From Gracilaria domingensis (Eukaryota; Rhodophyta; Florideophyceae; Gracilariales; Gracilariaceae), in NCBI GenBank assembly GCA_022539475.1, contig VCMS01000363.1, positions 1 to 64,000 of the forward strand: a stretch of 64,000 nt of DNA. The letters are read 5' to 3'. The translations under genes were made by a program, and so were the position numbers. The notes under the pieces are model-generated. The model ran no database searches and was not told where the DNA came from. It was given only the letters and a program-made list of their open reading frames with translations. Of the stretch, positions 8,501-64,000 are shown in pieces (within the stretch, counting starts at the first letter, position 1; each line of letters starts with the position of its first letter).

Positions 8501-8517
8501 TTTCTCAGCAAACCCCA

Positions 8518-10245: not shown

Positions 10246-10269
10246 AACATCCAAAATTTGATGGCACGT

Positions 10270-36224: not shown

Positions 36225-36234
36225 AAGAGGGGAG
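36224..36234 (+). promoter_or_regulatory. Gypsy-B polypurine tract
   Basis: The purine run aaagaggggag overlaps the last base of the stop codon and touches the right LTR. It is the plus-strand DNA primer site. Confidence 0.85.
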
Positions 36235-36496: not shown

Positions 36497-36501
36497 ATAG
36501 A

Positions 36502-36990
36502 GCATACTGTCGAAATACCACTGTACATGTTTGTTGTTAAAACGGACCATGAGTATCGATGGGCTCCAGATACGGCCTTTTAAAGACTGTACTCTGCGTT
36601 TTCAACAACACCTGCGACGGCTTCGTCGAAACTGTCAAAAATTAACCATAACGGCCTCCTCGAGGCTGCGGTGGCGGTAGATTCTACCAAATGGCGGCTA
36701 GTATCTTTATTAATAGGTTGAAAATGTCTCCTGTATTGTTGTGGATGTTGTTGGCAGTTGTTAGGCTATGCGCTACTTTTTGCGCTTTTATACTGCTTAG
36801 AATATTTCACTCTCGTAATACAACGACAAATAATGTACCTCTCTTGATTTCTAAATACTGAACAAGTAATGAAAATGATATGCATTATAATGCACAGACA
36901 GCTTTGCATTATACATTGCACTTGATCAACAAAATGCAACCTCACTCCCCTTAAATCATTGCATTTAAAATCGACGCACACAGCCTGTGC
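36502..36990. other. Spacer without a gene
   Basis: No frame or repeat can be supported. Flanking DNA of the Gypsy-B insertion. Confidence 0.55.
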
Positions 36991-36994
36991 CGGT

Positions 36995-37600
36995 GCTGCC
37001 TGCACGGTTTGAGAACGGGGTGTGCCCGTGCTTACACCTTGAGAAGAGGAGGTGGAAGCAATGGCAAAGCCTCTGCTCTCAACTTCACTTATCTAGGGGT
37101 GAACACAATCACGACCCGTGTCCAGAACATGGCTTTGAGAAAAGACTTTGACCATGCTCAAAATGTCACTTAAGTTGTGAACACGGGCAAAGCCCGAGTT
37201 CACAACTTTCAACCTCTTTTGGCAGCACAGCTACAGTTTTTGCTTCCGATCTCACCACATTGTGGGTTTGAGCACGGACCGTGCCCGCGCTCACAACGTC
37301 AGCAATGAAGGTGTTACCACGACACTGTCCCTGTTCACAAATCCACCACGCCTGTGGCTACCACAGGCTGAGGCCGTGCTCTCAACTTTTTTTCCCAGGG
37401 TGTGAGCAGCCGTGTTTAAAGCTTACAAAGCACAGGAATAGCTTGTCGTGGGCTGTTTCCGCTGCTCAACGCTTTACTTATCAAAGTATGAAGGCGCGCC
37501 TAATCCCTGTTAACACTCTTTTTCACCTAGGTTGTGAGCGCAGGAACAATTTGTGCTCACGACCTTTCTTTTGAAAGTGTGAAAACGGATGAAGGCTGTC
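36995..37600. repeat. Cluster of diverged hairpin units
   Basis: About seven spaced variants of a hairpin like TGTGAACACGGGC..GCCCGNGTTCACAAC occur at roughly 37005, 37095, 37173, 37266, 37330, 37400 and 37535. Unit spacing is 60-130 bases. The best pairs are at 37173-37207 (GTGAACACGGGC against GCCCGAGTTCAC) and 37266-37296. No gene is seen. It looks like an old tandem or repeatedly inserted short element. Confidence 0.6.
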
Positions 37601-38529
37601 TTTGCATTTGTACTTTTTTTCTTGTTGTTGCCTGTGGGATTCTATTAAAGCTGGACTGCTGTGCCTGCTGCGGTTTTAATAGCTGCATCATTGCGCAGAT
37701 TACAAAACGCTGTAATGAAACATTAAAATACTGTCGTAATTCTGCCAGAGACAAATAGAGGTTGCGTCGTAGATAAAAGGCACCTTAGATCTTAGAATAA
37801 GATGCAGAGATCAACGGCGCGCTGCTTATTGTGTCAGGAATCCGTCCAAATGCATGTTTTTTCGCTTTTTTCGAAAGAGGTAACATAAGGCTTACATTAC
37901 CTCTCTGCACTTTAAGACTTACAGTGCAGGGATGTAAGATAATTTTGCAAATTACCCCTATGTACTGTTTGCAAACCCCACTTTTTGGCCCATTAAATCA
38001 TTTTTGGTACACTTCTCGTTTTCGTCGTTTATGATTAGAATCTAACTTTTTGTTTCAAACAATGTAGTAAACGCTGGGGTTTTGTCTCAAAACATATGCC
38101 GTGTCACACAGCACATTTTGCCTTGTTTTTGGACATAGGATGCAATTAGATCAATAGACTACCAACAAATAAAAACGCAAGGAAAAAAAAGTACATGTTG
38201 TCCCAAATTGGGAGGACATATCCCTTGAATACCAAAACTGATTTAATTTTCCAAGCTTTCTATAGACATGTTAACAAGATATGCCAACAATTTGGAGCCT
38301 TTTAATTTTCCTTTTTTTGACTATAATAAATTGCTTTAGAAAGTTGACAAAAATTCAGATTTATAAATATTTAAGCAAACGCGTAAGGCTTGTGCAACAT
38401 AAAGTTCAAAAGAGAACTATTTAGCTTTTTACCTTTCTAGCTTTATATATGATACTATTGATTTGAACTCTTTAGAAGCAGAAATTCGCTTATTTCGCAA
38501 ATTTTCAAAGGAGCTTTGCGAGCTCTAAG
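37601..38529. other. AT-rich spacer
   Basis: No gene recognised; only short frames without known content. The last eight bases (gctctaag, 38522-38529) are the left target copy of the hAT derivative. Confidence 0.55.
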
Positions 38530-39153
38530 CAGGGGTCCTCAGCAATAAATTTCAATTGCAATATATTGCAATAAGCAATATCAATGCTTTATTGCATGTT
38601 TCTGAACATATTGCAATTTTTATTGCGGTCTTCTTCTTATTGCAATTTATATTGTAGGACAAAGAAGATATTGCTAGATTATTGCGTCTTGAATGGAAAC
38701 ATGTTACTAGCATGCGTTGGTCAACTTTTAGTGCTAACCTTGTACATGTTGGAGAAAATAAATTTAGATACACAGTACGTTTGAATTTCCTGCAAAATGA
38801 TATATGGCTTCAAAAAATAAACAAAACAGTACAAATCACTATTCAAATTAATCGCTTTTGAAACGTTTGCTTGTTTTCAGACCTTTTCCTCTCGTTTCAT
38901 ACAACAAGTAAATTCAAAACAGATTACGAGCGAAGCGCAAAGTTCTTGACCTTTCAAGGAGCTGAGCCGTAAACATATTCTTAAAGCATGAGTTCAATTG
39001 ACAACTTATTGCTACTGTCTGATCTTATTGCAGTAATATTGCAGATAAGTGTTTATATTGCAATATTTACTGCGCAAAAATTAGTTTGATAGCGCATATT
39101 GGATATTGCGTTCTGTAGAGCAATATATTGCAATAATATTGCGAGCAGCCCTG
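38530..39153. mobile_element. Non-autonomous hAT transposon, 624 bp
   Basis: Starts CAGGGGTCCTCAGCAATA and ends in the complement of CAGGGCTGCTCGCAATA, with a perfect 8-bp duplication gctctaag (38522-38529, 39154-39161). Both end regions are full of TTGCAATA and its variants, like the sub-terminal binding motifs of hAT elements. There is no transposase inside. Confidence 0.9.
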
Positions 39154-39260
39154 GCTCTAAGAAGTCTGCAAAGCTTGCTTTGCATAAATCTGATTTATTT
39201 ATGAAATTTTGCGTAATGCAAATTGCCAAAGCAAAAAGGGTGAGTCCAAATCAAACCGCA

Positions 39261-40013
39261 TTACGCTGCGACTCCTATGGGGCGTGCGCCTCCTATGCCC
39301 GCGGCGGGTGCGATTCGCCTGCCCCTGGGACAAGTGAAACAACAAGCTCTACAACACGATAAACTCCGTTGTGGTCTTATACAAGGGCGACAACAGCTTC
39401 CAAAAGGGGTCTGAGGGGGTAACGGTGTCGGTGTCGGTGGCATTGTAGCTGGTATTCGCAATGTAGAAGAACTTGTGACTGCAGCAACGTTGCAGGTGAT
39501 TGGTGGTTGATTTCCAACTGCTGCAAAGTTTATCGGGATACCATTTTCGTTTCGAGTGATGCCACGTTCTTGAATCACCACAGGGCGCTGCGTTCTGTCA
39601 TCGCTATACAGCCAGGCAATGTCGTCCCCAATTGTAGAAGGCATATTGTCGCACTCATATTCTTCGCCTTCCGATACACAAACTTGATTTTGGCATGCTA
39701 TCAGGATTCCTTGGTCTTCTCCTCCTGTGGCACTAAAACCACGAACACTAGACCCAATACTGCGGGTCGAAAATGTACCAAAACCGACTGTACTAAACCC
39801 ATTTCCTTGACTAAGAGAAGATGTCGGCGATGGTGATAGAGTTGCACCAACAGGAGTTGCGACTCCAGAACCACCTCTACCACTGGCCGAGCGACCAGCA
39901 AGAAATTCCACGCCACCAAGTCGCGGCCTTAGTGACATTGGAGTTCCATGAGCAGTCCACGCGCAAAGAAGAAGCCAGCACAACGTGCACACGCATACAG
40001 CAAACATGTTCAT
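39261..40013 (-). CDS. Putative secreted Cys-rich protein, 250 aa (host gene)
   Basis: Starting at MNMFAVCVCTLCWLLLCAWTAHG gives a clear signal peptide of about 23 residues with a likely cut after AHG. Residues about 30-110 are Gly/Ser-rich. Residues about 105-200 hold CQNQVCVSEGEEYECD and a conserved-looking segment. The tail is Thr/Pro-rich, then Cys-rich (CCRPC, CCRACCFTC). A TATA box at 40159-40168 predicts a transcript start near 40130, downstream of the longer possible start at 40145, so the start at 40013 is preferred. No family is recognised. It is the only gene in the window with no link to a mobile element. The simple-sequence C-terminus lowers confidence, and a hidden intron is possible. 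Confidence 0.5.
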   Translation of the reverse strand: MNMFAVCVCTLCWLLLCAWTAHGTPMSLRPRLGGVEFLAGRSASGRGGSGVATPVGATLSPSPTSSLSQGNGFSTVGFGTFSTRSIGSSVRGFSATGGEDQGILIACQNQVCVSEGEEYECDNMPSTIGDDIAWLYSDDRTQRPVVIQERGITRNENGIPINFAAVGNQPPITCNVAAVTSSSTLRIPATMPPTPTPLPPQTPFGSCCRPCIRPQRSLSCCRACCFTCPRGRRIAPAAGIGGARPIGVAA

Positions 40014-40158
40014 AGCGGAGCTGACGAACCCGCTGACGAAGAGCTGGTATCCAGAGCTTTGACCGATGGCTTGATATGAGCCTTGAGAAAGAACCCGGAA
40101 CACTGGCACTGAGGTAGGCGGCGATGGCAAGGTACGCAGGAGCACCGCATTTGGAACG

Positions 40159-40168
40159 CCTTTTTATA
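40159..40168 (-). promoter_or_regulatory. TATA box of the putative secreted protein gene
   Basis: GGTATAAAAAGG on the minus strand, about 150 bases upstream of the preferred ATG. Confidence 0.5.
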
Positions 40169-40584
40169 CCCTCACATCCACCCCTTGGGATCCATAACGT
40201 GAAACGAGAATGAAGTTTGTTAGGGTAATGACTCAAAGCTTGTAGCTGCCCTCTACCCATAGATACCCTTTTCCAACGCATGCTGTAGCAATGCAAGCAC
40301 AGCTAAATCTCACGACTTGCGGCCGGCCAGAAATATTCATGTGACAGAATGCCTCTTGCTCACGCTCATGCTTGAACGTACGGTAGAGAAAGCAACGTGA
40401 AACGAAATTTACAAAACCCTACTCAACTGGAACATGTGATGGTTTGGATACCCAATGGTAGCTCAATGAATTCTAGCTTTGTATAAAGGAGAAACTTGAA
40501 ACTAGTAGTCCAAAGTATCGATCGTACAAGGAATAGTTGGTAGAAAATGATTTGAGCGCAGCCTCTGTACTACTGTATACGACA
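40169..40584. other. Upstream region of the host-like gene
   Basis: No other frame recognised. It runs up to the left LTR of Gypsy-C; the bases before the LTR are tatacgaca. Confidence 0.5.
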
Positions 40585-40699
40585 TGTGGAGGCGGATGCA
40601 GGGGAGTGTCCCGCCACCCCAGGGACACTCCCGAACAATTTTTTTCTATATCTCCGACACCTTCCACCCCTGGACTGCGCCGTCACTCCCGCCGTCTGC

Positions 40700-40930
40700 G
40701 CCCACCGCTGCGCGCCGTGCGCTGCGACGCGGCGGCAAGGATGATGAGGTTTCGCGCCGCGCGCCGCGGCGCGCCCCCGACGGAGATGAAGAAGTCGCGC
40801 GCCGCTCGCTGCGGCGCGCCTGAAGAGGAGTATAATGAGGTTGCGCGTCGCGCGCCGCTGGCTGCGGCGCGCCCGCCGCTAAGCAGTCTTTGGAAGCTGG
40901 CGCCCCGCACGTTGCGGCGCGCCAGCTGCA
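40700..40930. repeat. GC hairpin array in the Gypsy-C LTR
   Basis: Four or five consecutive inverted repeats of the form GCGCGCCGC-5-GCGGCGCGC, at about 40706, 40752, 40797, 40844 and 40900, separated by less GC-rich spacers such as ATGAAGAAG. A copy lies at 49975-50230 in the right LTR. Confidence 0.75.
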
Positions 40931-41126
40931 GGGTAGGAAAGGAACGTGCGCGCAGCACCTGACGCTGGAGGACAGTGAGTGGAGCGCTCTCTTCGGGGAG
41001 CTCAGAAAGTTGTGGCGCGCTCTGTCGCGCGCGTCGGAACACATACGACCAGGGGATACAAATCAATTTAATCGAGAAGCAGGAGTTCTATGACAAAGAG
41101 GCAATCGAAGATACGAGAAATGGATA

Positions 41127-41537
41127 TCAATCAGAGGACAACAAAGCTTTCACAGCGTCATGAACGAGATGAAGCGCCCGTGCGCGGGAGGGAGAGCGTA
41201 GCACCATCATGGAAAGCGCCAACCCAACACCAATCCCGCGCACGAACAGTACTGGGAGCTCGTTAAGATTGTCTTTGAGCTCATCCATCGATATTCCACG
41301 CTTGAAGAGGAAGTCATATAGAGCCTCCTCGCAGGCGAAAAGTTGCGCTTCGGTACGTTCTTCGGTGGCAACATCGTCTTCGTTCGCAAATGCGGCGTCC
41401 TCCTCGAGCTGAATGGTGTCCGCAGTAACTTCTTTTGCTTCGCTCTCGATCAGGACGGTTGATTTGGCACGCGGAACATCGGAATGGTCGGTATCGTCGT
41501 CGGTCATAGTAGCAATAACTTCGTTTGGAGTTGACAT
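41127..41537 (-). CDS. Antisense LTR gene, 136 aa (Gypsy-C copy 2)
   Basis: Starts MSTPNEVIATMTDDDTDHSD on the strand opposite to gag-pol. It shares about two thirds of residues with the protein at 17239-17643, including ALYDFLFKRG, NLNELPV and FVRGIGVGLAL. It has an acidic N-terminus and a helical C-terminus with a short hydrophobic run and an Arg-rich turn (RSPSRARAL). It is not related to any family I know. Position in the LTR, antisense, recalls HBZ of HTLV only in arrangement. The third copy, in the right LTR, runs into the gap. Confidence 0.62.
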   Translation of the reverse strand: MSTPNEVIATMTDDDTDHSDVPRAKSTVLIESEAKEVTADTIQLEEDAAFANEDDVATEERTEAQLFACEEALYDFLFKRGISMDELKDNLNELPVLFVRGIGVGLALSMMVLRSPSRARALHLVHDAVKALLSSD

Positions 41538-42008
41538 CGTTCAAAAGATGGACACCTGAAAGGCGGTGGTAAGATAGGGGAAGCATGGCAGACCTGAGAG
41601 GCACCGAAGGGTAACTATAATATCGAATATACCGCCATGATAACTGGTCACGCACGCACAATCGTGATAGTGCCACGATGGCACGACATGGAAGGTGGAT
41701 GTCATCCGGAGGACTAGTTGAAAACCTAAATAGCCAGAAGAAATCTGGCCAACCACCGACCTACATAACGAAGAACCGTACGTTGACATTATTACCTATT
41801 ATGGACATGGTGAGCAATATTAAGTTGTTTGTCACAAGACGACAATCGGCGCACCGTATCACCAACAGCCAATGAACAGGAGACATAACGAAGAACCGTA
41901 TAACGGTATCACAACCAAGTATATGACCTGGTGAGCCGTTCTGAATGCCTTGGTGAAAGATGATATTAGGTGTTCGCTTGCGGTGACCATGCATTATCAC
42001 AATTGTAG

Positions 42009-51218: not shown

Positions 51219-51853
51219 ATAGTTTCTCATCGTTTCCTCAACACGTGGGCCTATCACCTCTGTAAGGTATTAGCCAGTTGCCATTCGGCCTTACAACCGG
51301 AGTTACGGTGGTACAGAGGGCCTGTCACTGTCTGCCCTCTCTCACGAGAGCGGACCTTCGGACAGTGCTGTGGGTTTCACTTCTTCGAGGTTGCCCACAT
51401 TCTCAGCAACTCAAATCAGTGTACGTCCGTGATCAATAAGATTAGGAATACAACCCTTTGCCCTTAATGGAGTGCCGAAATCCTGCAAAAGGAGACACGA
51501 AAGGCGTTCGGGAACCCTTCCTCGAAGAGTAAGCATTAGCTATGGAGCACTGCAGGAATGGTGCAACGGTCGGGGTATCCGAGACCAAAACCGTCACGAC
51601 GGGAGAAGAGGGCTCAAAATAGTGGACCTAGAGTCGGAGTTGCTGATGTAGAAAACGGCCGATGCCGGGCCTAAGATGTACGGACAGACACAACAAAAAG
51701 TATGTGGCACGGACGGCGACGAGCAGGGCGGCTACAGACGGAACAAGACGGAACAAAAAGAAACCGGCACACGGGTAGGCTTACCTGTCACAGTGACCAA
51801 AAAGAAAGAAGTAAAACAATGACACACAATAGGCCGAAGCGGCTCGAAGAGAA
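51219..51853. other. Gene-free stretch between gap and Gypsy-D
   Basis: No gene recognised. Some hairpins of the CC..GG kind occur, for instance GAGGGC against GCCCTC near 51320. It may be the 3' region of another element of the Gypsy-A lineage. Confidence 0.4.
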
Positions 51854-52367
51854 TGAAGATACCGGCCAGACCAACGGGGGGCTCTACAAGACCAATGGTG
51901 GAGCGCCGGGGAGGGACTGTACACGGGGCGCGCCAAGCGCAGGCTTGGACAGGACTAATAGTCACTCGTAATTAGAATTACACTAGGTAGTGTGATATGT
52001 GGCCGGCCCCCCCAAGCACCTCCCGGGCCCACTCGTGGCAGGCCCGTGAGAGCGAGGCGCTCGGGTGTACCGAAACCCCAACGCCAACCTCCCACACCAA
52101 ATGAAAGTCAAGCACAACTAGGTAATTTGACACCAGTGTCGGTTCTACAGCACCAATTGGTAAGTCTAGTAGTCCTCTAATAGTTGCTGACCTCGAGGGT
52201 TATACGGTGCCTGCCGCACACCAGTGAGGGCGTATTACCACTTGGGTCACCGTGCACTAGAGGCAACGGCGGGTTGCTGCCGACATTAGTGTCAGCGTGT
52301 TCACTCCTCCGCCGGGTCGAGCCCACGCAGGGTCCCCAAGCAGCTCGCACCGATCGGTTATACCACA
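51854..52367 (+). repeat. Gypsy-D 5' LTR
   Basis: Runs TGAAGAT to TATACCACA, aligned over its whole length with 62845-63415 but shorter, often differing where the other LTR has an ACCANNTGGT site. The next bases, TGGTCTCCCGACTAG (from about 52372), are a good primer-site candidate. Confidence 0.8.
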
Positions 52368-52371
52368 TATT

Positions 52372-52389
52372 TGGTCTCCCGACTAGAAT
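52372..52389 (+). promoter_or_regulatory. Gypsy-D primer-binding site (probable)
   Basis: TGGTCTCCCGACTAGAAT, four bases inside the LTR, reads as the complement of a tRNA acceptor end with CCA. Confidence 0.5.
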
Positions 52390-52659
52390 CTGTGGATTAC
52401 CAGTGGTTTTGGGAAGGAGGATTTGGAAGTCACGAGATACCGAGTGGTTTGGTTCCCGTTGCGGAAGCAATTGGCTCCGACGCCAAGTTACTAAATGGAG
52501 AAAGGGGCGGCGCTACCCAATAGGGGCGAGGCTCCAAAGTGGTCACCATACGGGGTTAGTGTCTATCGGTGTTGGATACCGGAGGACTGATTCGGAGGAA
52601 CGCCCACCGAGGGGGAAGAAGGTAGACCGAGAGGCTGGGGCCCTCGACCTTCCGGGCTG

Positions 52660-53965
52660 ACCAGTGGACGGAGGAGAGGCCTCCGCAGGGGGAGCCCGCT
52701 CCTGTAAACCCAGTGGTAGACCAAATGGAGGTGCCAGTCGGACCGCGACTGGATTGGACGAGGTCACCCGAGTGGTAGTTGATCGAGCTCCAGGAGGTCC
52801 TGACAAGGTACGTGGTGGTGTTACAGTACCTCGAAACGAGGTGCGAGGACACATCGACCGATTGGTTATGCTGGCTCTGCAGCAGCAGGGGTAAGCTTCA
52901 ACCTGAGATGGTGGCCAGGCCGCGCTCATGAAGCAAGCTCCCCGCTGCAGTGACGCCACCAAACCACTTGGTATTCTCACCCTAACCTTCCTACACAACG
53001 ACTGGTGAAGGATTTATCGACGTATGGGGAAAGAGGCAGAGCCTCAGGGATGGAGGGCCCGAGGTACGTTTACCTCCCCAACCTACTGGTGTAGCTCCGT
53101 CAGGACCAAGTGGTGGAGACCCTGATGGAGATTCGTCGAGCTCAGGAGACGAGCGTCGACGTAAACAAAATGGTAAGAAGAAGAAAACCAAAAGGGAAGA
53201 GAAAGAGTCGCCGGTCGGACTCGGACTCTTCGTCCTCAGACACCGATTCGGATTCGTCAGGAGACGACGACCGTAAGGTTCAGACGCAAGAGAAGGACTC
53301 TCGCAAGAAGAAAGGAAAGAATCCCGCAAGGGTAAGACCAAAAGGTATAACGATTCGGACTCAACTTCCGACGAGGAGACTGACCTAGAGGTGCTTACGC
53401 CGCTCAATGATTTATTCACCAAAGCGGTTGACTATCGTACCTATAGGTTAGAGAACAGACAGGCTGAGTATACCAAAGAGGTAGCTCAGAAGATAACGAA
53501 GCATCATAGGAAGCTTCGTTTCCAACTGGGTGAAACTCGCTTTAGCGGGGATGACCCTATTGCGATCATTGATTTCCTTCAAAGGTTCAAGATCGCTGTG
53601 ATCAGAATGGGTTTTCAGAGGCAGCAGCCATGTGGCTGTTTCAATTCTACCTAACTGGTCAGGCTGGAGCGTTGCTCCACAGCGCCTCCAAGGAAACCAT
53701 GGCGGTGGACGAAGACCAAACGGAAATGTTGACAACATACCCACAGGTGGTTAACTTCCTACTGGAAACCTACGCGACCGATGAGGTATCCAGGAGGCGT
53801 ACGCAGAGGTGCTTGCGTACGCCAGCGCGCGGGACAAACCGAATTGGAATTCGCTCGCTCCTTATGGGCATTAGCCTCCCGCTGTGGAAGCGTCTTTACT
53901 ACCAAAAGGTTGAAATCGATGTACGCCGACAACGTGGCGAAGTCTATCCGATCACAGGTTCGTAA
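52660..53965 (+). pseudogene. Gypsy-D gag region
   Basis: Pieces include a basic Ser/Lys/Arg-rich segment (53170-53340) and a gag-like block with FSGDDPIAIIDFLQRFK near 53545 and QVVNFLLETYATDEV near 53740, typical of gypsy capsid regions. Several breaks. Early ACCANNTGGT sites lie at 52963 and 53105. Confidence 0.55.
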
Positions 53966-54106
53966 CTACTAGCTACCAACCGCACGGTCGACTACAACGC
54001 ACTAGCCCGCCATGCACGGGACTAGGGACACCGTTCGGTCAGGGCCAGGAAGGACTCCGCACCACTCGGCAAACCATCGAAGGAGAAAGGAAAGACCAGG
54101 CGGTCA

Positions 54107-55489
54107 GTGTTTGACGTAGAGGAAGAGGAGACCACTACGGAGGAGGCGTCCACACAATACGCCTCCCAGGGTCACCCAGTCCACTTGGTGCATGCGCAAC
54201 CGACAACTCGATCGCACGGTAATACCTCTTGGTCCAGCTCGCTATCCAGCGAGCCACCCTCAAGACAAACCTCAGCTCCACCATCACAGGTATCCGTACC
54301 GGTCAGCCCGGTCCTAGCGGTACCATTCAAGCAATATGGTGAACAAGGACCATCCCCGCAGCAACGGAGTGCAGTACCTACTGGAGGCCGTCCCCCATCG
54401 CGCGTGAGGACCCACAACCGGCAATCTCCTCTGTTGGTTCTGTTTGTCGCCCACCACTTGGCAACAGCGTGCCCAAGTGTGGCTCCGCAGAACAGGAACG
54501 CTCTCCTGACTGCTCGCCAGCAGAACCACCAGGATATATTTGGGCCCCGGCACGGAGCGCAGGCACGGGACACGCAAATGCGCGACCCAATGCAGCCACA
54601 CCTCATCAGGTACACCTCGTCACGGAGCAGGACCAAACGGATCCCGCCCCGCAGGCGGAAAACGCCGAACAGTTGGGATAGAGGCCTTCCCCAACTGTCC
54701 GAAGACGGAAGGCCTTCCAGAACCAAGTGGTGCAAGTATGGACAATTACCCATTGGTTACAGGGAGGAGAGCCTCATGGACGGCACCGAACCGATATGCT
54801 TTCTCAAGCATAGTAACTATAAGGTAAACGTCACCCTCGGGTTTACTTCTAACCACTTGGTACCATGCGTCACTGTCCTGGACACCGGGGCAGGACCTAA
54901 TCTGGTGAATGCCAAACTATTAACTAACAGACAACTTAATAAGCTTCAGCCATGTACATTAACTAACCCACTGGTTGACGCCAACAACAGACCACTAACC
55001 GTCATGGGAGCGCTTACCATAATGGTATTGATTGACACCATGAGGGTCCGAGTTCGCTTCATAGTCGTTAACCAACTGGCAACAGACTGTATCCTCGGCA
55101 CAACTTTTATAGACCAGTATGTCAGGGCAATTTTTCCACGTTCTAAGACAGTTCTGTTCCATAATGGCCCCCGGATCGCCATTATTGGTAACCACAAGGG
55201 TGCCTCTACGAAAGAGAACCGCACTCAACACCAACCGGTCCCGGAAAACACACTCTCCAACAAGGTGCGATTGGCAAAGGCGGTAACAATACCGCCTATG
55301 AACCACTTGGTAGTGAAGGTCACATGCCAACAACCTGGCCTGTTATCCATTCAGAACCATTCACGGTTGGCCGAACGACACATGACCTTAATGGCGAATG
55401 GTATAGTCGACAACATACCGACAAAACCGTTTCAGGTCTACCTCAGTAACTTCAGCAACCGCCCGGTCAAGTTGCCAAACACACCGTAA
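54107..55489 (+). CDS. Gypsy-D gag tail and protease part
   Basis: About 240 residues of Pro/Ser/Gln-rich sequence precede a retropepsin-like domain with VTVLDTGAGPNLVN (near 54870) and DCILGTTFI (near 55090), the two usual signature regions. The frame is open for 460 codons. ACCANNTGGT sites at 54722, 54852 and 55302 are read in the coding sequence, for example as NHLV. Confidence 0.75.
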   Translation: MFDVEEEETTTEEASTQYASQGHPVHLVHAQPTTRSHGNTSWSSSLSSEPPSRQTSAPPSQVSVPVSPVLAVPFKQYGEQGPSPQQRSAVPTGGRPPSRVRTHNRQSPLLVLFVAHHLATACPSVAPQNRNALLTARQQNHQDIFGPRHGAQARDTQMRDPMQPHLIRYTSSRSRTKRIPPRRRKTPNSWDRGLPQLSEDGRPSRTKWCKYGQLPIGYREESLMDGTEPICFLKHSNYKVNVTLGFTSNHLVPCVTVLDTGAGPNLVNAKLLTNRQLNKLQPCTLTNPLVDANNRPLTVMGALTIMVLIDTMRVRVRFIVVNQLATDCILGTTFIDQYVRAIFPRSKTVLFHNGPRIAIIGNHKGASTKENRTQHQPVPENTLSNKVRLAKAVTIPPMNHLVVKVTCQQPGLLSIQNHSRLAERHMTLMANGIVDNIPTKPFQVYLSNFSNRPVKLPNTP

Positions 55490-55799
55490 TTGGTCTTGCC
55501 TTACCGGCTCCCCGTACGATCTTTACGATTATACCACAATGGTCCCACGAGGTCGTGGATGCTAAGGAAGGGGGGGGCAGTGTCAATTCGGTGAATTCGT
55601 CGCGAACAGACCATATGGTGCAGCGACTAGCTGAGCGAGAAGACCAGAAACTGGAGCTCGACCCAGTGACCAATTGGAAGACGGAGGTGAATATAGGACT
55701 TGAAGGGGAAGAGCTCAGAGCTCGGATCCTTGGACTCCTGGAGCCATTCAGTACCATGTGGTCGGGTAAGCTGGGAGCCATTAAGGCCACCCAGCACAG

Positions 55800-57100
55800 G
55801 ATTGACCTCAAACCGGACTCCCGTCCCATCCACCAACAGCCATACCGCGCGGGACATAAGGCCCGTGAGGTAGAGCTGGAGGAGGTAGAGCGGATGCTCC
55901 GCGAGGGGGTTATAGAACCGGCAAACTCGGAATGGGCTAGCCCTGTAGTGCTAGTCCAAAAACGAGGAGAGACCCGTATGAGGTTCTGTATTGACTACAG
56001 AAAACTTAATGCCGTAACGGTAAGGGACTCGTACCCCATCCCGAGGATGGATGAATGCATCGACTCCCTAGGAGATGCGAACATCTTTACCACACTGGAC
56101 GCGAACTGCGGTATTGGCAGATCGAAATACCAGAGGGTGACCGTGATAAGACTGCGTTTACATGCCACGCAGGCCTGTATCGCTTCTTACGCATGCCGTT
56201 TGGTTTAAGAAACGCCCCCGCTACCTTCCAAAGGGCGTTAGACATCATACTGTCTAAAGTGAAGTGGACAACCGCATTGGTATACATAGATGACGTAGTC
56301 ATCTACTCGAGGTCCATAGAGGAGCACTTCTCGCACGTCCAAGTGGTACTGCAGTTGCTACAAGAGGCAGGCGTGACCCTCAAACTACGAAAGTGTATGT
56401 TCTTCAACCAAGAGGTAGAGTACCTAGGGCATACAATAAGCCCCGGGAAACTCGAAGTGACCAAACGGAATATCCGAGCGGTACAGGAAGCGAAGCTCCC
56501 TACGTCGCAGACGGACATACGATCCTTTATAGGTCTATGCAACGTCTACCGGCGGTTCATCAAGGGTTTTGCAAAGATAGCCGCACCCCTGAACCGGAGG
56601 TTGCAGAAGGGCAGCCCACACACTTTCACCACCTGGAAGAGGACGAGGTAGAGGCGTTCTATACATTGAAAGCAGCGCTTCTCTCCCCACCGGTACTGGC
56701 ATTGCCCAAAACGGGACTCCCGTATACACTGGACACGGATGCGTCGGACGCCCAAATAGGTTGCTGCCTAATGCAGGAACAGGAGGACGGCAAGCTCGCA
56801 CCAATTGGGTATTGGAGTAGAGCTCTTAACCAAGCGGAGCAGAACTACACCGTAACGGAGAAGGAATGCCTAGCGGTTGTTTGGAGCATGCTCATGCTAC
56901 GTCCTTACCTATATGGTGTGCGCTTCACGCTCCGAACGGATCACGACTCCTTGAGGTGGATATTAGGCTTGGCGGACGCATCGGGTCGTCTGGCCCGATG
57001 GCGTCTGAGACTCTCGGAGTTTGAGTACGATGTGCAGTACCGCCCCGGGGTCAAGCACCGAGTGGCGGATGCATTGTCCCGGTTGAATACCGAAGGATTG
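55800..57100 (+). pseudogene. Gypsy-D reverse transcriptase and RNase H region
   Basis: RT blocks: FCIDYRKLNAVTV, YPIPRMDECIDSLG, FGLRNAPATFQRA and LVYIDDVVIYSRS (near 56285). RNase H blocks: TLDTDASDAQIG (near 56730), LAPIGYWSRALNQAE and TDHDSLRWIL. The RNase H end reads KHRVADALSRL near 57060. At least two breaks. Confidence 0.88.
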
Positions 57101-57379
57101 GACACTGACCCAGTGGACGACGACATCCCATGCTTTACTATAGAACCAGCTAACCACGAGGTCAATGAAGTTCTGAAGGGATACTGGCATGATGACAGTA
57201 CGTACCAAGTGGTAGTGGAGACCCTCCTCCTGTGGAGGAAGGGGAACACGCTCCAATCACCCGTGAGGAATTCTTACGCGAACAATCGACCGATAGGTTG
57301 TGCAAAACGCTCGCTGACGTACTTGGAAGGAAGGATTCTCATTTCGACGTCGACCACAATGGGTACCTCATCAGACGCT

Positions 57380-58275
57380 CACCTTTAGACGGAGCTCTCC
57401 AGAAGGTCGTACCTGAGTCATTAAGACAAAGGGTGTTATATCTGTCACACAATCCACGGCTTTCGGGGCACCCTGGAGCCACGCGGTTGTACTATACCCT
57501 TCGGAGGCAATTCTACTGGCCGCATATGGCTAACGATGTATATACCTATGTGGCGCAATGCAATTCGTGCATTAAGACCCGAGGTGGTGTGGCGAAGCAC
57601 AGGAAGTACCTAAAGCTATTCCCGGCGGCGGGGCCCCTGGAATTCGTAGCAATCGACATACTGGGGCCCCTGCCCAAGACCTCAGAGGGTTATCGCTTTG
57701 TAGTAGTCATAACCGACAGGTTCACAAAGCTCACCAGAGCCATACCTCTGAAGAACCAAACGGCAACGACACTAGCGACAGCCTTCCTGGAGAATTGGGT
57801 CTACCCGTACGGTGCTCCCATGTACCTACTGACCGATAACGGTTCGAACCTAGCTTCTAAGTTCTTCGAGGCGGTTTGTACAATGCTAGGGGTCAAGCAC
57901 TACTTTACTACGGCCTATCATCCGCAAACAAACGGCCAAGTGGAACGCTTCAATAAGACCCTAGTGGCACGCCTACGGCACTATGTCGAAGAGCACCAAA
58001 CCACATGGTCGGAGTATGTCCAACCATTGACATATGCGTACAACCTCCAGGTCCACAGGGTCACTCAAACAACCCCATTCGACCTGGTACTTTCGCGAAC
58101 ACCACATGGTATTATCGTCCAGCCCGGACCTGACCGCTCGGAAGCGGCCGGGACACTCACACCGGCGAAGGTCAAGAGAAACATACTCCAGAAGTTACGC
58201 GCCGCTTTGGCTGCTGCCAAAGTTAAGATGACAGCAGCCCAAGAACGTATAAAGCGGACTATGACCGAACGGTGA
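57380..58275 (+). CDS. Gypsy-D integrase part
   Basis: H-H-C-C region: LSHNPRLSGHPGATRLY to CNSCIK. Core: AIDILGPLP, LTDNGSNL and TNGQVERFNKT as D,D,E. The frame is open through the core. Two palindromes 100 bases apart (58000, 58101) are read in different phases, as TTW and as PHG, so the DNA motif and not the peptide is constant. Confidence 0.9.
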
Positions 58276-58779
58276 GCAAAGTGACCAAAGTGGTAGCAGG
58301 AGACATGGTCTTCCTTGACGTGCCACCAAAAGGTAAGCGACCAACCCCAGCGGAGATGGAAGAGGACATCCGCCTTGAGGAGGATATCAATTCTAAACTA
58401 CTACCCAAGTCCACGGGACCATACAAGGTGATTCGCTCCGACGAGCATACCGCTACGGTCATAATGGAAGGTTTGGAGAACACGGTCTCCATCGACAGGA
58501 TTGTCAAGGCCGCACAACCGACGACAGCGAATGCACAACCAATAGGTGAGCCAACGCAGCAGGAAGCGGAGAGGGAGCAAACGTCTCCCATACCCCTCCT
58601 ATGATGAGTCAGCCGAGCGGTCAACCTTCCACCAGAGCCGTAACGGCTGACCCCACGACCCAAGCGGCACAGGAGATCGAGCCTCGGCAAGACCAACGGG
58701 TCACACCACCCACGGGGAGCCACGCACCCCATGACCAAATGGAAGAGTCACACCCTCAAGTAGACACTCAGGAGTGCGC

Positions 58780-58975
58780 TATTGACACCATTGTAGGTCA
58801 CGAACACACCACAAAGGGTATGCGCTACCGGGTAAGATGGTATGGATGGTCGCCCGAGCACGACTCTATGGAACCACCTGGTCATATCCCTAACAACTTC
58901 ATCATCCGATACTGGCGCAAACAAGGGCGAACGCCCCCACCAACTGGTATTGCTTCGCGTGGTACGCGTCGCTAA
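58780..58975 (+). CDS. Gypsy-D chromodomain part
   Basis: RVRWYGWSPEHDSMEP and a following helix match chromodomains and the Gypsy-A copy. The stop at 58975 ends the sense coding part. Confidence 0.85.
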
Positions 58976-59125
58976 GGAAGGGGGGGGTTATCGAAGCCGT
59001 TGAACGCCACGCTACACAAAAAGCTAACTAACTAACCTAACAGGAAAACAAAAGAAGATCAGAGATCACAATGCAAGACACTTTATTAGTCGAGAAGAAT
59101 CCACGAGAGGGAACCACGAGGTGAC

Positions 59126-61852
59126 TTAGGAGGCCTTGGAGGACCCACGGCCACGTCCGCGTCCACGACTGGTTCCACGACCGCGACCACGTCCACGGGA
59201 GGTCCCGCGAGATGAAGCGGAACCTCCACGACCAGAGGACACCGACATAGGTCCGGCGGAGCTTCCGCCCCCGCCGCTAGCCGCGCTCGGTGGCGCACCA
59301 CCACTTGGTAAGGGAGCAAAAGTACCAGCAGGTCCCGCAGGGGTACCGCGGCTGACTACCGGCACGGTATTCGCAGGACCAGTGGGTGGATGGAAGGAAG
59401 GCGGTAAGCTAGACGGAGGGATGCCACCAGAGGTCGGAGGAGCAAGACCACTAGACGGCCCTGCACCGGGGGTCAGACCAGTAGGCGGCCTAGGAGCACC
59501 GGACGTCGGCGGAAGCGGAGCCGAACGGAAACCAGTTGAGAAACCACTTGGTGCTCCTGTCCCAGTACTTGCTGGAGGAAGAGGAACGTTGTGAGGACCA
59601 AGCGGAGTATGGAAAGGTGCCGCAGGATCACCACCAGGAGGTCCACCAGGGAGTTGATACGTACCAAGGCCACCAAAGCCTACCATTGGGGTCGCAGGTT
59701 GCTGTGACGCAGGAGCGTACGGGTTGAAACTTTCCACAGGGGGTCGATGTAACGGCGCGTGGCCTTCCACAAGGTTGCTCAACTGACCAACATAGGCTGT
59801 CACCTCACGGTAGAGATTGCGCTGGAAGTAGTCGCGGAACTGTCGCAGCTCAGAAGTGCGCCGCTCGTGGTGAGCAACCACGGGGAGCAAGTTGGTAAGA
59901 GTATCCACAGCGGTGAGGATGTCATTTGGACCAGGACGGTTGAAGTGCACCATCGAGGCGTGGTTGAGACGAGCCAGAGCGCTCCGTATCGCGCTACTAT
60001 CACCACCAGGGGGCACCGGATTCACCGGAAGCGACTGGAAACCAACCCGAAGAGGCCCCTGGGCAGCCCGTCCGGGAGGGTGAGCAGCCGCCTGAGGGTT
60101 AGCCAGACCACTTGGAACAGGCGCAGCCACGCTGGTCGGAGGAGTAGCCTGTACAGGTGCCGACGGAGGCAATGCGGGAGACTCATAGTTCTCGGCAGCC
60201 ACCATCACGGTATCGTCATTACCAAATGGGTCTTCGCCAGCCATGTGCTGCTGTTGGAGAGGCACGATGCTATGAACCTCCGGGTCGTAGACATCCCAAC
60301 CCTGTTCAGGCCCCCAATTGTGGTTACTTACCGCAGTGAGGTAGCCATCCAACTGCTGCGCAGTATATTTGGTGCCCTCCACGATGTTGGAGAGCCCCAT
60401 GGCACGAATGTCGCCGACCACATCGTTGGGAATATTGAAGATACGACCAACTGGTTGAGTTCCGCTGATCCCGACAGACTTGTCAGGGCAGCGCGTGTCC
60501 CAAGTCACACCTTCCACGGAAGCCTGAAGGGCGAGGATAGCCACCATGACGGCCCACTCGCTGCGCGCGACCGACCAAACGGCATATGCGTTGTTCCTCT
60601 CGAGGGAGATGCAACTACCAAAGTACGCAAGGACCGGCGGGGTCGGCACTTCCAGCCACTGACATACTTCATAGTGGTCCCACCAAGAGGGTCGATTGAC
60701 ATACCATGTCCGGCGGTTGTGGTCGCTCTGCGACCAATACTCAACGTTGTGGAACAGGAACATGGTCCGCGTACGGTTGTTACGGTGACGAACACGGCTC
60801 TCAGCCATCGCATCGGTCGCCCACCTCCCACGGTCAGTCCAATAATTGGTATCTAAAGGGCGCTCAAACGCGACGTACTCCAGATCGACCTCGATGTGCG
60901 TAGCAGGTTCGTCCAAGCGGTGAAGGATATCTACCAAACGGCGGAAGTAGTGGACCTCCCCATCGCAGCGGATGAAGGGGAGATCCGACGGTACGGCCAC
61001 GGGGATGTAGTATAGAAACTTCGTGTGTCGCTGCCGCGCATGGAAACACTGTTGTCGACCGAACCGGCTCTGCTTCTCGCCCTTGCGTGGTGGAGGAGGT
61101 GCCATAGGCACCGCCTTCAACCGGCGACAATCCCAACGGGCAATTGCGGTATACTGCGTGAGACCCATGTGGCGGAACCGCAAGGGACAGAGTGAGGAAC
61201 TGATGTGGAAAGGCCAGTTCCCCAGAGCGACCAATTCGGCGGAGATATCGGCAAAGCGTGCACCATAGTGGGCATGCGGCTGCCCGTGAGTCCTATTAAG
61301 GTCATGAGGATTCAGCTGTTGAGCCTCCACCGTACCGGCCACCGCAAGAGGGTTAACATTGCTCGGACCCGCGGCGGCTGCGTAGGGATCATACCCACCG
61401 CGACCGTAAGGGTCTTGACGAGAACGCGTACTCGACGGCGTGTTAGGCTTGAAGATGCCACCTCCGCGGCCGCGCGCTACCCCAGGGGTCTTGCCAGACA
61501 TCCTCGACCGGGAGGCAACAGTTTCGCGAACCGAACGGTTGACCTCCGCCGAGTGGGAGACTTCAGAAGCCGAATATCCCTTTATAGGGTCGAAGTGCGG
61601 CTCCTCCAATAACAAGTGGTTGGCCTCCACGGGAGCCTCGGCGCCCGATGGAAAGGACACAGGTGTACCGGTCTGGGACGGCAGACAGGGCTGCGAAGAG
61701 TCAACCACGTGGTAATTCGATTGAAACGGCGCCGTCTCACCCCCGGGGTCCACCACAACGGGAAGGGCGCGCGCGATGCCCTCCTCGGCACCGTCTTGAC
61801 GGCGTTCGAACGTCATCGACCACCCCGTTGGGGAAGCGGGTTGATCACCCAT
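59126..61852 (-). CDS. Gypsy-D antisense protein, 908 aa, RG-rich tail
   Basis: A fully open minus-strand frame inside the element, ending about 150 bases past the chromodomain stop. Residues 1-120 are polar; about 120-160 carry an RG/Gly patch (ARGRGGG, YGRGGYDPY); about 195-520 look folded, rich in Trp and His (NVEYWSQSDHNRRTWYVNRPS, RSEWAVMVAILALQ). About 560-870 is Pro/Gly/Ser-rich with a helical island (DILTAVDTLTNLLP). The tail has two RGRGRGRG runs, typical of RNA- or DNA-binding proteins. No known family is recognised. It is open while the sense genes are broken. At least five ACCANNTGGT sites lie within or just upstream of it. Confidence 0.7.
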   Translation of the reverse strand: MGDQPASPTGWSMTFERRQDGAEEGIARALPVVVDPGGETAPFQSNYHVVDSSQPCLPSQTGTPVSFPSGAEAPVEANHLLLEEPHFDPIKGYSASEVSHSAEVNRSVRETVASRSRMSGKTPGVARGRGGGIFKPNTPSSTRSRQDPYGRGGYDPYAAAAGPSNVNPLAVAGTVEAQQLNPHDLNRTHGQPHAHYGARFADISAELVALGNWPFHISSSLCPLRFRHMGLTQYTAIARWDCRRLKAVPMAPPPPRKGEKQSRFGRQQCFHARQRHTKFLYYIPVAVPSDLPFIRCDGEVHYFRRLVDILHRLDEPATHIEVDLEYVAFERPLDTNYWTDRGRWATDAMAESRVRHRNNRTRTMFLFHNVEYWSQSDHNRRTWYVNRPSWWDHYEVCQWLEVPTPPVLAYFGSCISLERNNAYAVWSVARSEWAVMVAILALQASVEGVTWDTRCPDKSVGISGTQPVGRIFNIPNDVVGDIRAMGLSNIVEGTKYTAQQLDGYLTAVSNHNWGPEQGWDVYDPEVHSIVPLQQQHMAGEDPFGNDDTVMVAAENYESPALPPSAPVQATPPTSVAAPVPSGLANPQAAAHPPGRAAQGPLRVGFQSLPVNPVPPGGDSSAIRSALARLNHASMVHFNRPGPNDILTAVDTLTNLLPVVAHHERRTSELRQFRDYFQRNLYREVTAYVGQLSNLVEGHAPLHRPPVESFNPYAPASQQPATPMVGFGGLGTYQLPGGPPGGDPAAPFHTPLGPHNVPLPPASTGTGAPSGFSTGFRSAPLPPTSGAPRPPTGLTPGAGPSSGLAPPTSGGIPPSSLPPSFHPPTGPANTVPVVSRGTPAGPAGTFAPLPSGGAPPSAASGGGGSSAGPMSVSSGRGGSASSRGTSRGRGRGRGTSRGRGRGRGSSKAS

Positions 61853-62844
61853 GAGGTATTAAAGGCGCGAGTTGGAGCGAGAGCGTGCCACGGAGGATAC
61901 CAACCGAGAGGGGGAACACCACCAATTGGATGACTAGATGAAACCTGAGGGTCACAGAGAACGGGCACGCCGCTCGAGCGAGCTGACACACCGTGAAAAT
62001 GACCAGGGTTGTGCGCCGGCTGGACGGGTTCCGTGAACCAGGGAGGGTACAACCACCCCAGAGGGAACCTAAGGGACGGAAGGAGACCGCGAGGAACCAG
62101 GTGGAGGGGCGCTGAACGCCACGCAGTCGGGTAAACCCCTCGGCTGGACCTGAAGCACGCCTGAACACCCCGATGAGGCAGACCACTAGGTAGAAGCGGC
62201 GTCAGCACCGGTACGGTCACGAAGTCTGAAGAGCCACGGGCAGGAGTCTCCTCGACGCGGCCGCCCAAGGCAACGACACCCCAGTGGCGCCCTCACTCAA
62301 GCGGAGAGACAGTACGTGTCGGAACCAACGAGGTTTCACCTCAGTACGGCACAAGACCAAGTGGCCAACAGAGGATAGGAGCGACACCACGAGGGGGCGG
62401 TGTGCCGATCGGTTGACAACTGCGAACCCCACCGAAGGGAGGCTCGAAACCAACTGGTAAGCCGGGACTAACCCGCCCAGGGGGAGGACGGACAGGGGAA
62501 GATGGAGTGACGGACTCCTCCGGGAGGGACCAAAGAGGCGAAGACAACCACGTGGTACCAGGCGCGCGACAAGATCAACCTGAATGGTCGCGGTTCGCGG
62601 TTTCGCGTTCCAATACCACGAGGGACGTAAGGTACGATCGCACCTACCACAGGGGGGTACGGCGGCGTGGGTAATGGCGCTGCAGTGCATGTGGCGAGCC
62701 GCGCCGTGCACCGCGCCATCTTCGCGTCATCGCGAGACGCGCCGTGCGCCAGGCGATGCGCGCCGACGACCGTTTGGTGAAAAGGCGGCAAACGCCGTAG
62801 GACCTTCGCAGCCACGGGGCGTGCCTGTCGGTAGGAGGGGGGTC
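61853..62844. promoter_or_regulatory. Region between antisense gene and 3' LTR
   Basis: About 1 kb with no supported gene. It would hold the antisense promoter. Perfect palindromes at 62449 and 62547, further near matches, and a purine tract (aggaggggggtc) just before the LTR. Confidence 0.45.
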
Positions 62845-63415
62845 TGTAGTATAGCTCGGCCAGATCAACGGGGGCTCTACAAGACCAAGTGGTGACGTCA
62901 CGCTCTCCCGGGCACGTGTGTCTACTGTACCACGTGGGACGCGCAAGCGCAGGATTGGACAGGACTAATTAGTCTATTCTCGATAATTTAGAATTAATAA
63001 TTACTAGGTAGTGTAGATATGTGGCCGGGGTGGTGCACCACAAATGCACCTCCCGGTGGCCCACGTGGCACTAGGCCCGTGAGAGCCGGAGGGGCGCTCG
63101 GGGTACTAAACCCCCGAGACGCCAACCTCCCACACCAAATGGTAAAGTCAAGCACCAACTAGGCTAATTTGACACCAGTTCGGTTCTACAGTCACCAATT
63201 GGTAAGTCTAGTAGTCCTCTAATAGTTTTGCTGACCTCGAGGGTTATACGTGCCTGCCGCACACCAGTGCAGGCGTATTTACCACTTGGTCACCGCGCAC
63301 TATAGGCAACGGCGGGTGCTGCCGACCTATTAGGTGTCACGCGTTTCACTCCTCCGCCGTGTCGAGCCCACGCAGGGCTCCCCACTAGCAGCTCGCACCG
63401 ATCGGTTATACCACA
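62845..63415 (+). repeat. Gypsy-D 3' LTR
   Basis: Runs TGTAGTATAGC to TATACCACA after the purine tract. Perfect ACCANNTGGT at 62884, 63134, 63194 and 63281. AT-rich core near 62975-63010. Confidence 0.85.
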
Positions 63416-64000
63416 GATAACTAGTCCATCACCAGGTAGTGACTCTCCGCGAGGAGGCTATCACGCACCAGGGGTTCCTGAGTCAGAGCCGACACTTGTT
63501 AAGTGCGTTTACTTGCCCAGTGCGGGTCGAGCTCACCCACCTAAGTAGATTGGCCGACCCCCACTCTCAGGGTGAAAATTAGTAAAATATCCTAACTATC
63601 TAGAATACTAGAGATAATACTAAGTTTCCCTACGAATGGGTGTAGTAGGCACTACACGTGTGTGAAGAATGCAGCAAAGGCTGTGTACACGACCGTGACC
63701 AATTCCTATTGTGACCATTCCCAAGTAATTGGCAAATCCACGTGCAACTCATAAAGAGCTGTACTTCACCTTCGTACCGGAGCGATTAGTATGAATCGCA
63801 TAACGGACAAAGTTCCGCGAAACGCGTTGCACTACGTATTCCCCTCTAAGGTGCAAACTCACCTCTGGAGCTGTCCTTAACCTCGCTCCGCGAGAGTATA
63901 AAATACCCACCGCGATGAGCGGGACGATACCGACTTCTCGTGTTCACACAGCTCCTGCGCACAATCCTCCCTCGCTTCCAGCGATACATCGAGTCTCCTC
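63416..64000 (+). other. LTR-like sequence with a TATA box, cut by window end
   Basis: AT-rich core near 63580-63620, hairpin GTGTAGT-AGGC-ACTACAC near 63641, and GTATAAAATA at about 63895 followed by a C-rich start region. It resembles the LTRs of the Gypsy-A/D lineage in layout but has no second copy in the window. Confidence 0.4.
63895..63904 (+). promoter_or_regulatory. TATA box in the right-edge LTR-like sequence
   Basis: GTATAAAATA; transcription would start near 63925-63935, heading out of the window. Confidence 0.5.

Follow-up and report, generated by a model that had tools for sequence, protein, structure and literature searches.

The DNA analysed here, referred to as the window, is the 64-kb stretch at positions 1-64,000 of Gracilaria domingensis contig VCMS01000363.1, and the element under study lies at 51854-63415 within it. 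Its long terminal repeats (LTRs), target-site duplication (TSD), protease, reverse transcriptase (RT), RNase H and integrase in the PR-RT-RH-IN order, and a chromodomain after the integrase identify it as an 11.6-kb Ty3/gypsy LTR retroelement with a chromodomain. Throughout its length the element carries a palindrome, ACCANNTGGT, which belongs to a broader set of symmetric sites that recur every 50-250 bases in this group of elements, differ between related element families and appear to be under selection. The parts of the element, including its open reading frames (ORFs), are as follows.

51849-51853, no strand: left TSD, 5 bp, 4/5 identical to the right one (read from sequence)
51854-52367, + strand: 5' LTR with TG...CA ends and 1 perfect ACCANNTGGT (sequence comparison and site count)
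52372-52389, + strand: probable primer-binding site, beginning TGG as primer-binding sites do (sequence)
53541-55489, + strand: gag/protease region, frames broken in the window copy (ORFs, Pfam)
54863-55114, + strand: weak aspartyl protease match, E 0.012, which fails the cut-off (Pfam)
56112-56438, + strand: reverse transcriptase PF00078, E 7.2e-26 (Pfam)
56720-57022, + strand: RNase H PF17917, E 4.5e-36 (Pfam)
57232-58275, + strand: integrase ORF, with H2C2 at 57409-57579 and rve at 57634-57924 (Pfam)
58781-58918, + strand: chromodomain PF00385, E 4.5e-07 (Pfam)
59126-61852, - strand: antisense gene, 908 amino acids (aa), RG-rich C-terminus, candidate reader of the sites (ORF and homologue searches)
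62832-62844, + strand: probable polypurine tract (judged from sequence)
62845-63415, + strand: 3' LTR with TG...CA ends and 4 perfect ACCANNTGGT (sequence comparison and site count)
63416-63420, no strand: right TSD (read from sequence)

In the window copy the gag-pol frames are interrupted (52368-58975), yet the antisense gene is open. Intact gag-pol is present in other genomic copies, with open frames of up to 1571 aa in the integrase search listing, and a by-eye comparison found the 5-bp TSD to be exact at three other copies (C262, C65 and C72).

The window contains 23 exact copies of ACCANNTGGT, all within 52152-63290 and none in bases 1-51800, in agreement with the initial annotation, which had counted at least 23 perfect sites in this element. 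Their positions, all without strand and all from the window pattern count, are given below.

52152-52161: site ACCAATTGGT
52963-52972: site ACCACTTGGT
53105-53114: site ACCAAGTGGT
54722-54731: site ACCAAGTGGT
54852-54861: site ACCACTTGGT
55302-55311: site ACCACTTGGT
55610-55619: site ACCATATGGT
55753-55762: site ACCATGTGGT
57204-57213: site ACCAAGTGGT
58000-58009: site ACCACATGGT
58101-58110: site ACCACATGGT
58873-58882: site ACCACCTGGT
58939-58948: site ACCAACTGGT
59300-59309: site ACCACTTGGT
59543-59552: site ACCACTTGGT
60446-60455: site ACCAACTGGT
61704-61713: site ACCACGTGGT
62449-62458: site ACCAACTGGT
62547-62556: site ACCACGTGGT
62884-62893: site ACCAAGTGGT
63134-63143: site ACCAAATGGT
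63194-63203: site ACCAATTGGT
63281-63290: site ACCACTTGGT

Dinucleotide shuffles of the window yielded a mean of 0.89 copies of ACCANNTGGT (standard deviation [sd] 0.93, maximum 4), and 0/100 shuffles reached 23. Among the 4-base palindromes with spacers of 0-12 in the element, ACCANNTGGT is the commonest by far, the runner-up being ACCGNNCGGT with 7 copies, and ACCA..TGGT with any other spacer in that range occurs 0-3 times each. The 23 copies are divided among the 5' LTR (1), the leader and gag-pol (12), the antisense ORF (4), the interval separating the antisense ORF from the 3' LTR (2) and the 3' LTR (4), and several codon phases are occupied inside ORFs, bearing out the earlier description of sites in both LTRs, in gag-pol, in the antisense gene and in non-coding parts. 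Genome-wide, ACCANNTGGT occurs 4164 times, compared to 1620 occurrences of the reversed pattern.

The same annotation had described eight fixed bases around a free centre. The 10-bp palindrome is real, but the signal is wider, and its centre is biased towards A and C. The broader site CC-N4-GG is present in 212 copies in the element (18.3/kb, versus 1.6-4.5/kb in six stretches of the window used as controls), with 30-41 copies per 2-kb bin in element bins versus 0-13 upstream, and the eight variants counted, each differing from this site at a single fixed base, have 36-91 copies each. At CC-N4-GG sites an A is preferred before CC, and an A (or G) after it. With this flanking base included, the element holds 65 ACC-N4-GGT and 35 ACC-N5-GGT, compared to a triplet expectation of 8.4 each, and counts for spacers 3 to 8 are 7, 65, 35, 20, 9 and 2. 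The ACCANNTGGT copies are thus the best-matching subset of a broader CC-N4-GG site, and chance or base composition as their source is ruled out by the dinucleotide shuffles, the triplet expectations and the codon shuffles described below.

An integrase search of the genome, in which 117 matches were scored, resolved identity tiers of 85-100% (family A, that of the window element), 70-73% (B) and 58-61% (C). Searches with the antisense protein returned at least 54 matches for A and at least 74 for C, the latter with further homologue groups at about 55-60% and 42-49%; all genome search listings are lower bounds. Families D, E and F were separated by pol and antisense-protein identity. The stretches analysed were L031 (with partial L037 and L038) for B, L032 for C, L034 for D, L033 and L035 for E, L036 for F, L039 for G and L040 for H, so that families B-H each rest on 1-3 stretches, that of H being partial. 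One family A insertion has an identical right flank on contigs C133, C363 and C543, which suggests that the assembly probably holds alternative haplotypes and that copy counts are inflated. The G stretch matches, at 80-86%, a second element in the window:

1-8000, + strand: second related element, G-like, entering from the window edge, with CCG-N6/7-CGG at 5.6/kb (density and homology)

The comparison of families that the initial annotation had proposed reveals that related families carry different dialects of the motif. ACC-N4/5-GGT reaches 8.65/kb in A and 10.2/kb in B, versus 0.5-1.5/kb in C-G; CCGNNCGG reaches 4.0/kb in C, 4.2/kb in D, 6.5/kb in E and 2.5/kb in F, versus 1.47/kb in A, 0.49/kb in B and 0.85/kb in G; and CCG-N6/7-CGG reaches 7.3/kb in G, versus 0.5-1.2/kb in A-F. 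In F, CCG-N3-CGG (22 copies) is almost as common as CCGNNCGG (25). G has 21 CCG-N7-CGG (4.2 expected), and H has 33 CCG-N6-CGG and 33 CCG-N7-CGG (4.5 expected for each); a stretch of a second element in L033 also bears the G-type motif. Genome-wide, CCG-N7-CGG occurs 33,756 times and its reverse 21,264 times. The H stretch (C1:16900-26700) is motif-rich, only the protease-side part of its pol matches relatives, and it is possibly a non-autonomous relative of G. The dialects are therefore family-specific, ACC-N4/5-GGT in A and B, CCGNNCGG in C-F and CCG-N6/7-CGG in G and H, and motif presence tracks the pol phylogeny across A-G.

Ten control stretches hold 0-0.9/kb of each dialect motif. They comprise two other gypsy elements and one copia-like element of the window, three more window stretches, three B flanks and an insertion in D, and none of the three other retroelements of the window shows raised dialect-motif density. 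One of the control gypsy elements has an RT about 40% identical to that of the motif-bearing clade (integrases 24-26%), so these controls are not wholly unrelated. Some controls are enriched for other palindromes, namely CAG-12-CTG in the copia-like element (8 versus 1.1) and CGC-8-GCG in the GC repeat at 36-42 kb (14 versus 2.2).

The remainder of the window includes a DDE_Tnp_4 transposase ORF at 14623-15672 and, at 8467-11432, the copia-like retroelement (RVT_2). The GC-rich repeat at 36000-42000 shows an excess of CGC/GCG spacings, including CCG-N7-CGG at 40757-40905, and is unrelated to the finding. In the family C stretch, CGTACG is present in 28 copies (3.0/kb, versus a window background of 0.16/kb) that lie only partly inside CCGTACGG.

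Several lines of evidence bear on whether the sites are maintained. Synonymous codons were shuffled within 12 ORFs of families A-E (1000 shuffles), and in 10/12 none of the shuffles (0/1000) matched the count of the family core, which is ACC-N4-GGT for A and B and CCGNNCGG for C-E; the exceptions are the short A reverse transcriptase ORF (98/1000) and the C antisense ORF (149/1000). Spacers 3, 7 and 8 were near expectation, with a mild spacer-3 excess in the A RT (20/1000), A antisense (17/1000) and A gag (38/1000) ORFs. The cores were not in excess in three control ORFs, in one of which CC-N4-GG was reached by just 40/1000 shuffles. In G pol, z scores were 6.5 for CCG-N6 and 8.7 for CCG-N7, and CC-N4-GG was not raised.

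Site density drops at both borders of the window element, and the 1.75-2.15 kb beyond the 3' border of three B copies contain 1, 0 and 0 ACC-N4/5-GGT; a further one lies about 190 bp past the element end in L031. An internal control is provided by the D element, which contains a DDE transposase ORF (PF03184, L034:4287-5465) and has a single CCGNNCGG (at 4892) between 3502 and 5894. The coefficient of variation (CV) of the gaps between sites is 0.69-0.95 in six site sets, below random in 6/6 and at least 2 sd below in A CC-N4-GG (0.80 versus 0.98 +- 0.06) and in E (0.69 versus 0.97 +- 0.12). In alignments between families, A and B share 3 site positions (of 6 and 15 sites), C and E share 4 (17, 12), C and D share 6 (17, 15) and 5 (21, 10), and D and E, which are 87% identical, share 9 (15, 11), compared to 0.02-0.07 by chance. 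The dialect sites of A or B share 0 positions with those of C, though 5 positions are common to the CC-N4-GG sites of B (34 sites) and C (39 sites), compared to 0.40 by chance. Site positions are thus partly inherited and partly new between families, with density kept. Taken together, the border drop, the synonymous embedding, the evenness and the partial sharing of positions argue for selection on site density. To judge from these patterns, the sites are real, under selection and specific to their families; this sequence phenomenon is firm, and we infer a reader and a benefit behind it.

Besides chance, other explanations of the motif were rejected. The initial annotation had offered a symmetric cytosine-methylation site as one reading of the palindrome, and this did not hold up: the cytosine-5 methyltransferase family PF00145 has no match in the genome (the same search matched 10/14 control genomes, those named being bacteria and archaea), and CpG is not depleted, with observed/expected ratios of 0.92-1.24 in ten stretches, so that a 5-methylcytosine tag was rejected. 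C-to-T plus G-to-A changes at CpG are 1.16x those at other C/G (0.529 versus 0.457 per base, counted by copies and not by events), and the decay of CCGNNCGG to CCANNTGG at CpG was rejected on the CpG ratio and these transition rates. An integrase target site was rejected for family A, the family examined, in which right flanks with a GG fitting CC-N5-GG numbered 2/38 and those fitting CC-N4-GG 0/38. These 38 distinct flanks remained from 91 listed places after internal ones (with a primer-binding site next to them) and repeats were dropped, and flanks with G at base 16 were missed by the pattern.

The explanation that we favour, to which we assign even chances, is that these are selected symmetric sites in double-stranded DNA for a dimeric reader, probably element-encoded, whose preference has drifted between families; the dimer is putative, as are the identity of its gene and its effect. 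The palindromic form of the sites and their presence in every part of the element point to double-stranded DNA and to a dimer. Under this model, selection would hold palindromes at high and roughly even density along the full element, in LTRs as well as in coding sequence, and a symmetric dimeric DNA-binding protein would read them. The architecture of this reader would fix the outer CC-to-GG distance, mainly 4-5 bp in A-F and mainly 8-9 bp in G-H, and the inner bases would represent drifting specificity. In G-H, CC and GG lie 10-11 bp apart, which, with about 10-11 bp to a turn of DNA, would set them about one helical turn from each other. The reader would most likely be encoded by the antisense gene that this element group carries between pol and the 3' LTR, could act in trans on relatives that lost this gene, and, with a site every 100-250 bp or so along the element, would mark chromatin or cDNA as its own, for example for anti-silencing or coating. 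A more specific version, which we regard as tentative and hold with somewhat less than even confidence, is a self-recognition code: a symmetric dialect, written in synonymous codons over the whole element about once per 100-250 bp and read by the element's own antisense-encoded protein, with dialects splitting by half-site and spacer (4 bp versus a helical turn) in the course of family divergence, so that the reader would continue or cease to serve non-autonomous relatives.

Homologues of the antisense ORF are present in C, D, E, F and G (in G at E 2.6e-11), the A and C proteins being 31% identical over 297 aa; the C protein has 782 aa and the G protein 610 aa. The ratio of nonsynonymous to synonymous substitution rates (dN/dS) is 0.20-0.28 in four comparisons with the window copy, 0.19 for L022-L029, 0.42 for L027-L029, and 0.58 and 0.64 for two recent copies; with 5/8 pairs at 0.19-0.28, the antisense gene is under purifying selection. 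Among the matches listed for G, 65/72 are at least 97% alike, suggesting a recent spread of this family. A homologue search with the 908-aa protein and alignment A1 returned none at E 1e-3, a search of solved structures returned only HIV Rev chains (E 0.07-0.77, judged to be chance), and the phage collection and viral contigs searched yielded nothing informative.

A number of results weigh against this explanation, and several of them concern the proposed reader. Family B has dense sites, and no antisense homologue was found in 3/3 of its copies; likewise, none was found in the G-like stretch at window positions 1-8000 (with the A, C, D, E and G proteins as queries) or in the H stretch. The reader may thus sit in gag-pol or in the host, or act in trans. 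The antisense proteins of A, C, D, E and G have no Pfam match, TRP28 (PF04195) included, two structure models of them are poor (predicted local distance difference test [pLDDT] scores of 39 and 43), and a fold search gave no match beyond a single one at E 9.9. Furthermore, the families form one clade, so that the co-occurrence of motif and antisense gene is confounded by their common ancestry. The antisense protein (908 aa in the window element), conserved in most families, is a candidate reader, and it is unproven because B keeps the sites without the antisense gene. The idea put forward in the initial annotation, that the element tags its DNA for a protein of its own, accordingly survives in part: the sites are element-specific, favoured at synonymous positions and organised in family dialects, as would be expected of a self-tag with a co-evolving dimeric DNA-binding reader, but the choice of the 908-aa protein as reader is weakened by family B and by the lack of a recognised DNA-binding domain.

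Conservation within family A is also modest. Across 30 copies, ACCANNTGGT columns have 0.49 minor alleles per column versus 0.84 at shifted positions (p 0.012), and the fraction of variable columns at ACCANNTGGT shows no difference (p 0.21); across four site classes, p < 0.03 was obtained for 3/4 on minor alleles and for 1/4 on variable columns. The suggestion that sites are kept better than their neighbours among copies is therefore upheld by the first measure and not by the second, in what is a weak test.

The inner bases raise a further difficulty. A-F sites with spacer 4 show a moderate excess of complementarity at the inner base pair, whereas in G and H the first two or three inner pairs covary over all four bases, beyond what one fixed half-site would give; in G with spacer 8, the first inner pair is complementary in 66/94 sites (25 expected) and the second in 46/94 (24 expected). 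A mixture of past or parallel specificities must then be assumed, and we infer that the covariation reflects fixed-geometry dimers that recognise, or once recognised, a range of symmetric sequences. The central two bases in A and C-F lean on the pol-sense strand (C > G in 5/5 families and A > T in 5/5; tested versus the element's own composition, p is 0.004 to 1 per test, with few tests significant singly), unlike the prediction for a purely double-stranded symmetric site. Pairs outside CC/GG are mostly not complementary and often below expectation, with the exception of H at spacer 6 (30 versus 18.6). In A-C, G and H these outer pairs are often under-complementary (second outer pair 35 versus 52 in A, and 19 versus 32 in G at spacer 9), as if longer palindromes were avoided.

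If the favoured reader is not the antisense protein, it may be a gag-pol product (Gag, integrase or the chromodomain tail), with the sites serving to organise the packaging of cDNA, its import into the nucleus or the pre-integration complex. This alternative, which we consider unlikely, would fit both the parallel between motif and pol phylogeny and the persistence of the motif in B without an antisense gene, but the insertion flanks mismatch the site, and the three other window retroelements, which have gag-pol, are not enriched despite the RT similarity of one of them to the clade.

A rather less probable alternative is that a host activator, insulator or chromatin protein reads the sites, which the elements would have evolved in order to recruit it. 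Such a reader would account for the elements lacking the antisense gene, but half-sites and spacers that differ by family within one genome would demand either several host proteins or a single one of very loose specificity. Zinc-cluster factors bind everted CCG repeats, and the corresponding family PF00172 was not found in the genome, which says little, as the control genomes gave no match either.

We likewise deem it improbable, to a slightly greater degree, that the palindromes function by folding into short hairpins, either in RNA or in single-stranded DNA, for instance as dispersed packaging signals. The Watson-Crick covariation of the G and H inner positions with any base and the sense-strand bias towards A and C at the centre of A and C-F sites would agree with hairpins, as would the excess of 5-bp stems with 3-base loops in G (31 versus 2.1) and H (19 versus 1.7). 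However, A-F sites would leave a 2-base loop if the inner pair formed, and RNA is not known to make 2-base loops. Paired positions in G and the window relative do not retain G-T: of 933 paired, 54 are G-T and 87 are A-C, versus 53 G-T and 71 A-C of 535 unpaired. What is kept in G is total length (peak 12-13) instead of stem or loop length, with 12, 31, 5 and 7 five-bp stems at loops of 2, 3, 4 and 5 (1.0-2.1 expected), and stems are not extended outward in most sets. RNA folding z scores of A (-0.84 and -0.98 for the two strands) and B-D (-0.63 to 0.01) are not far from that of the control element (-0.43), and short hairpins are about twofold above expectation even in a control stretch (20, 19 and 21 four-bp stems at loops 3-5, versus 10.0, 9.0 and 8.3), an excess below that of G and H. 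The hairpin reading is hence disfavoured, less firmly than integration targets or CpG decay. Very improbable, finally, is the creation of palindromes by replication-linked mutation (fold-back copying by reverse transcriptase), which would affect the entire element, coding or not, and might yield covariation but fails to predict the family-specific fixed outer bases, the kept distance and the even spread.

Returning to symmetric sites read by an element-encoded protein, the closest precedent in principle, by analogy, is the VANC protein of Arabidopsis VANDAL elements, which are Mutator-like element (MULE)-type DNA transposons. In the available text of PMC5735166, short motifs are concentrated in their own VANDAL family and differ between families, motif density matters, the motifs form tandem arrays in non-coding parts, and the effect is a loss of cytosine methylation supported by chromatin immunoprecipitation (ChIP) and electrophoretic mobility shift assays (EMSA). 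As far as that text goes, the likeness lies in a motif that is particular to one family, dense within it and accompanied by an element gene that varies from family to family, and the difference in motifs that are not described there as palindromic, in contrast with the dispersed palindromes seen here, coding sequence included. Moreover, the element described here is an LTR retroelement with reverse transcriptase and integrase, not a MULE-type transposon, a methylation effect would have no evident substrate (no PF00145 match in the genome, and CpG not depleted), and its sites are known from sequence alone. VANC therefore fails as the family to which this system belongs, on element class and on motif arrangement.

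Two further systems offer partial parallels. DNA uptake sequences of Neisseria and Pasteurellaceae are short, protein-read words that saturate their own DNA, coding sequence included, with dialects between relatives, but they are bacterial, non-palindromic and serve DNA uptake. In small RNA viruses, dispersed RNA packaging signals are stem-loops with a loop motif, similarly numerous, degenerate, located inside genes and fairly even; here, the tests lean to double-stranded DNA, with the counter-evidence given above.

According to the available portion of PMC7264820, antisense ORFs situated between pol and the 3' LTR were recognised in the 1990s and have no assigned function. In the plant Tat/Retand group, the antisense ORF lies at the same place as here (no homologue being found in B), DNA binding of the Retand TRP28 protein is predicted only, and the Grande protein is nuclear, as stated in the available parts of PMC7264820 and PMC11963269. 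The antisense proteins described here have no TRP28/Transposase_28 Pfam match, and the same portions of these two articles report tandem-repeat arrays and do not mention element-wide palindromes. The word antisense is absent from the available part of an oomycete survey (PMC5348765). An oomycete as host was rejected on the lack of an elicitin match in the genome, in a search that gave no match in the control genomes either. An element-wide palindrome code was not found in the literature searched, which lay outside subscription journals, and as far as these searches go an element-wide, family-specific palindrome code is undescribed.

If the proposed reading is true, it would provide a general answer to the role of orphan antisense ORFs in Ty3/gypsy elements, with sequence yielding a specific binding prediction for one antisense protein family. 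A dense protein-binding code at synonymous positions would bias codon use, dN/dS and the dating of such elements. Furthermore, self-tagging by transposable elements would no longer be confined to VANC but would take in LTR retroelements, and a host in which cytosine methylation is not evident.

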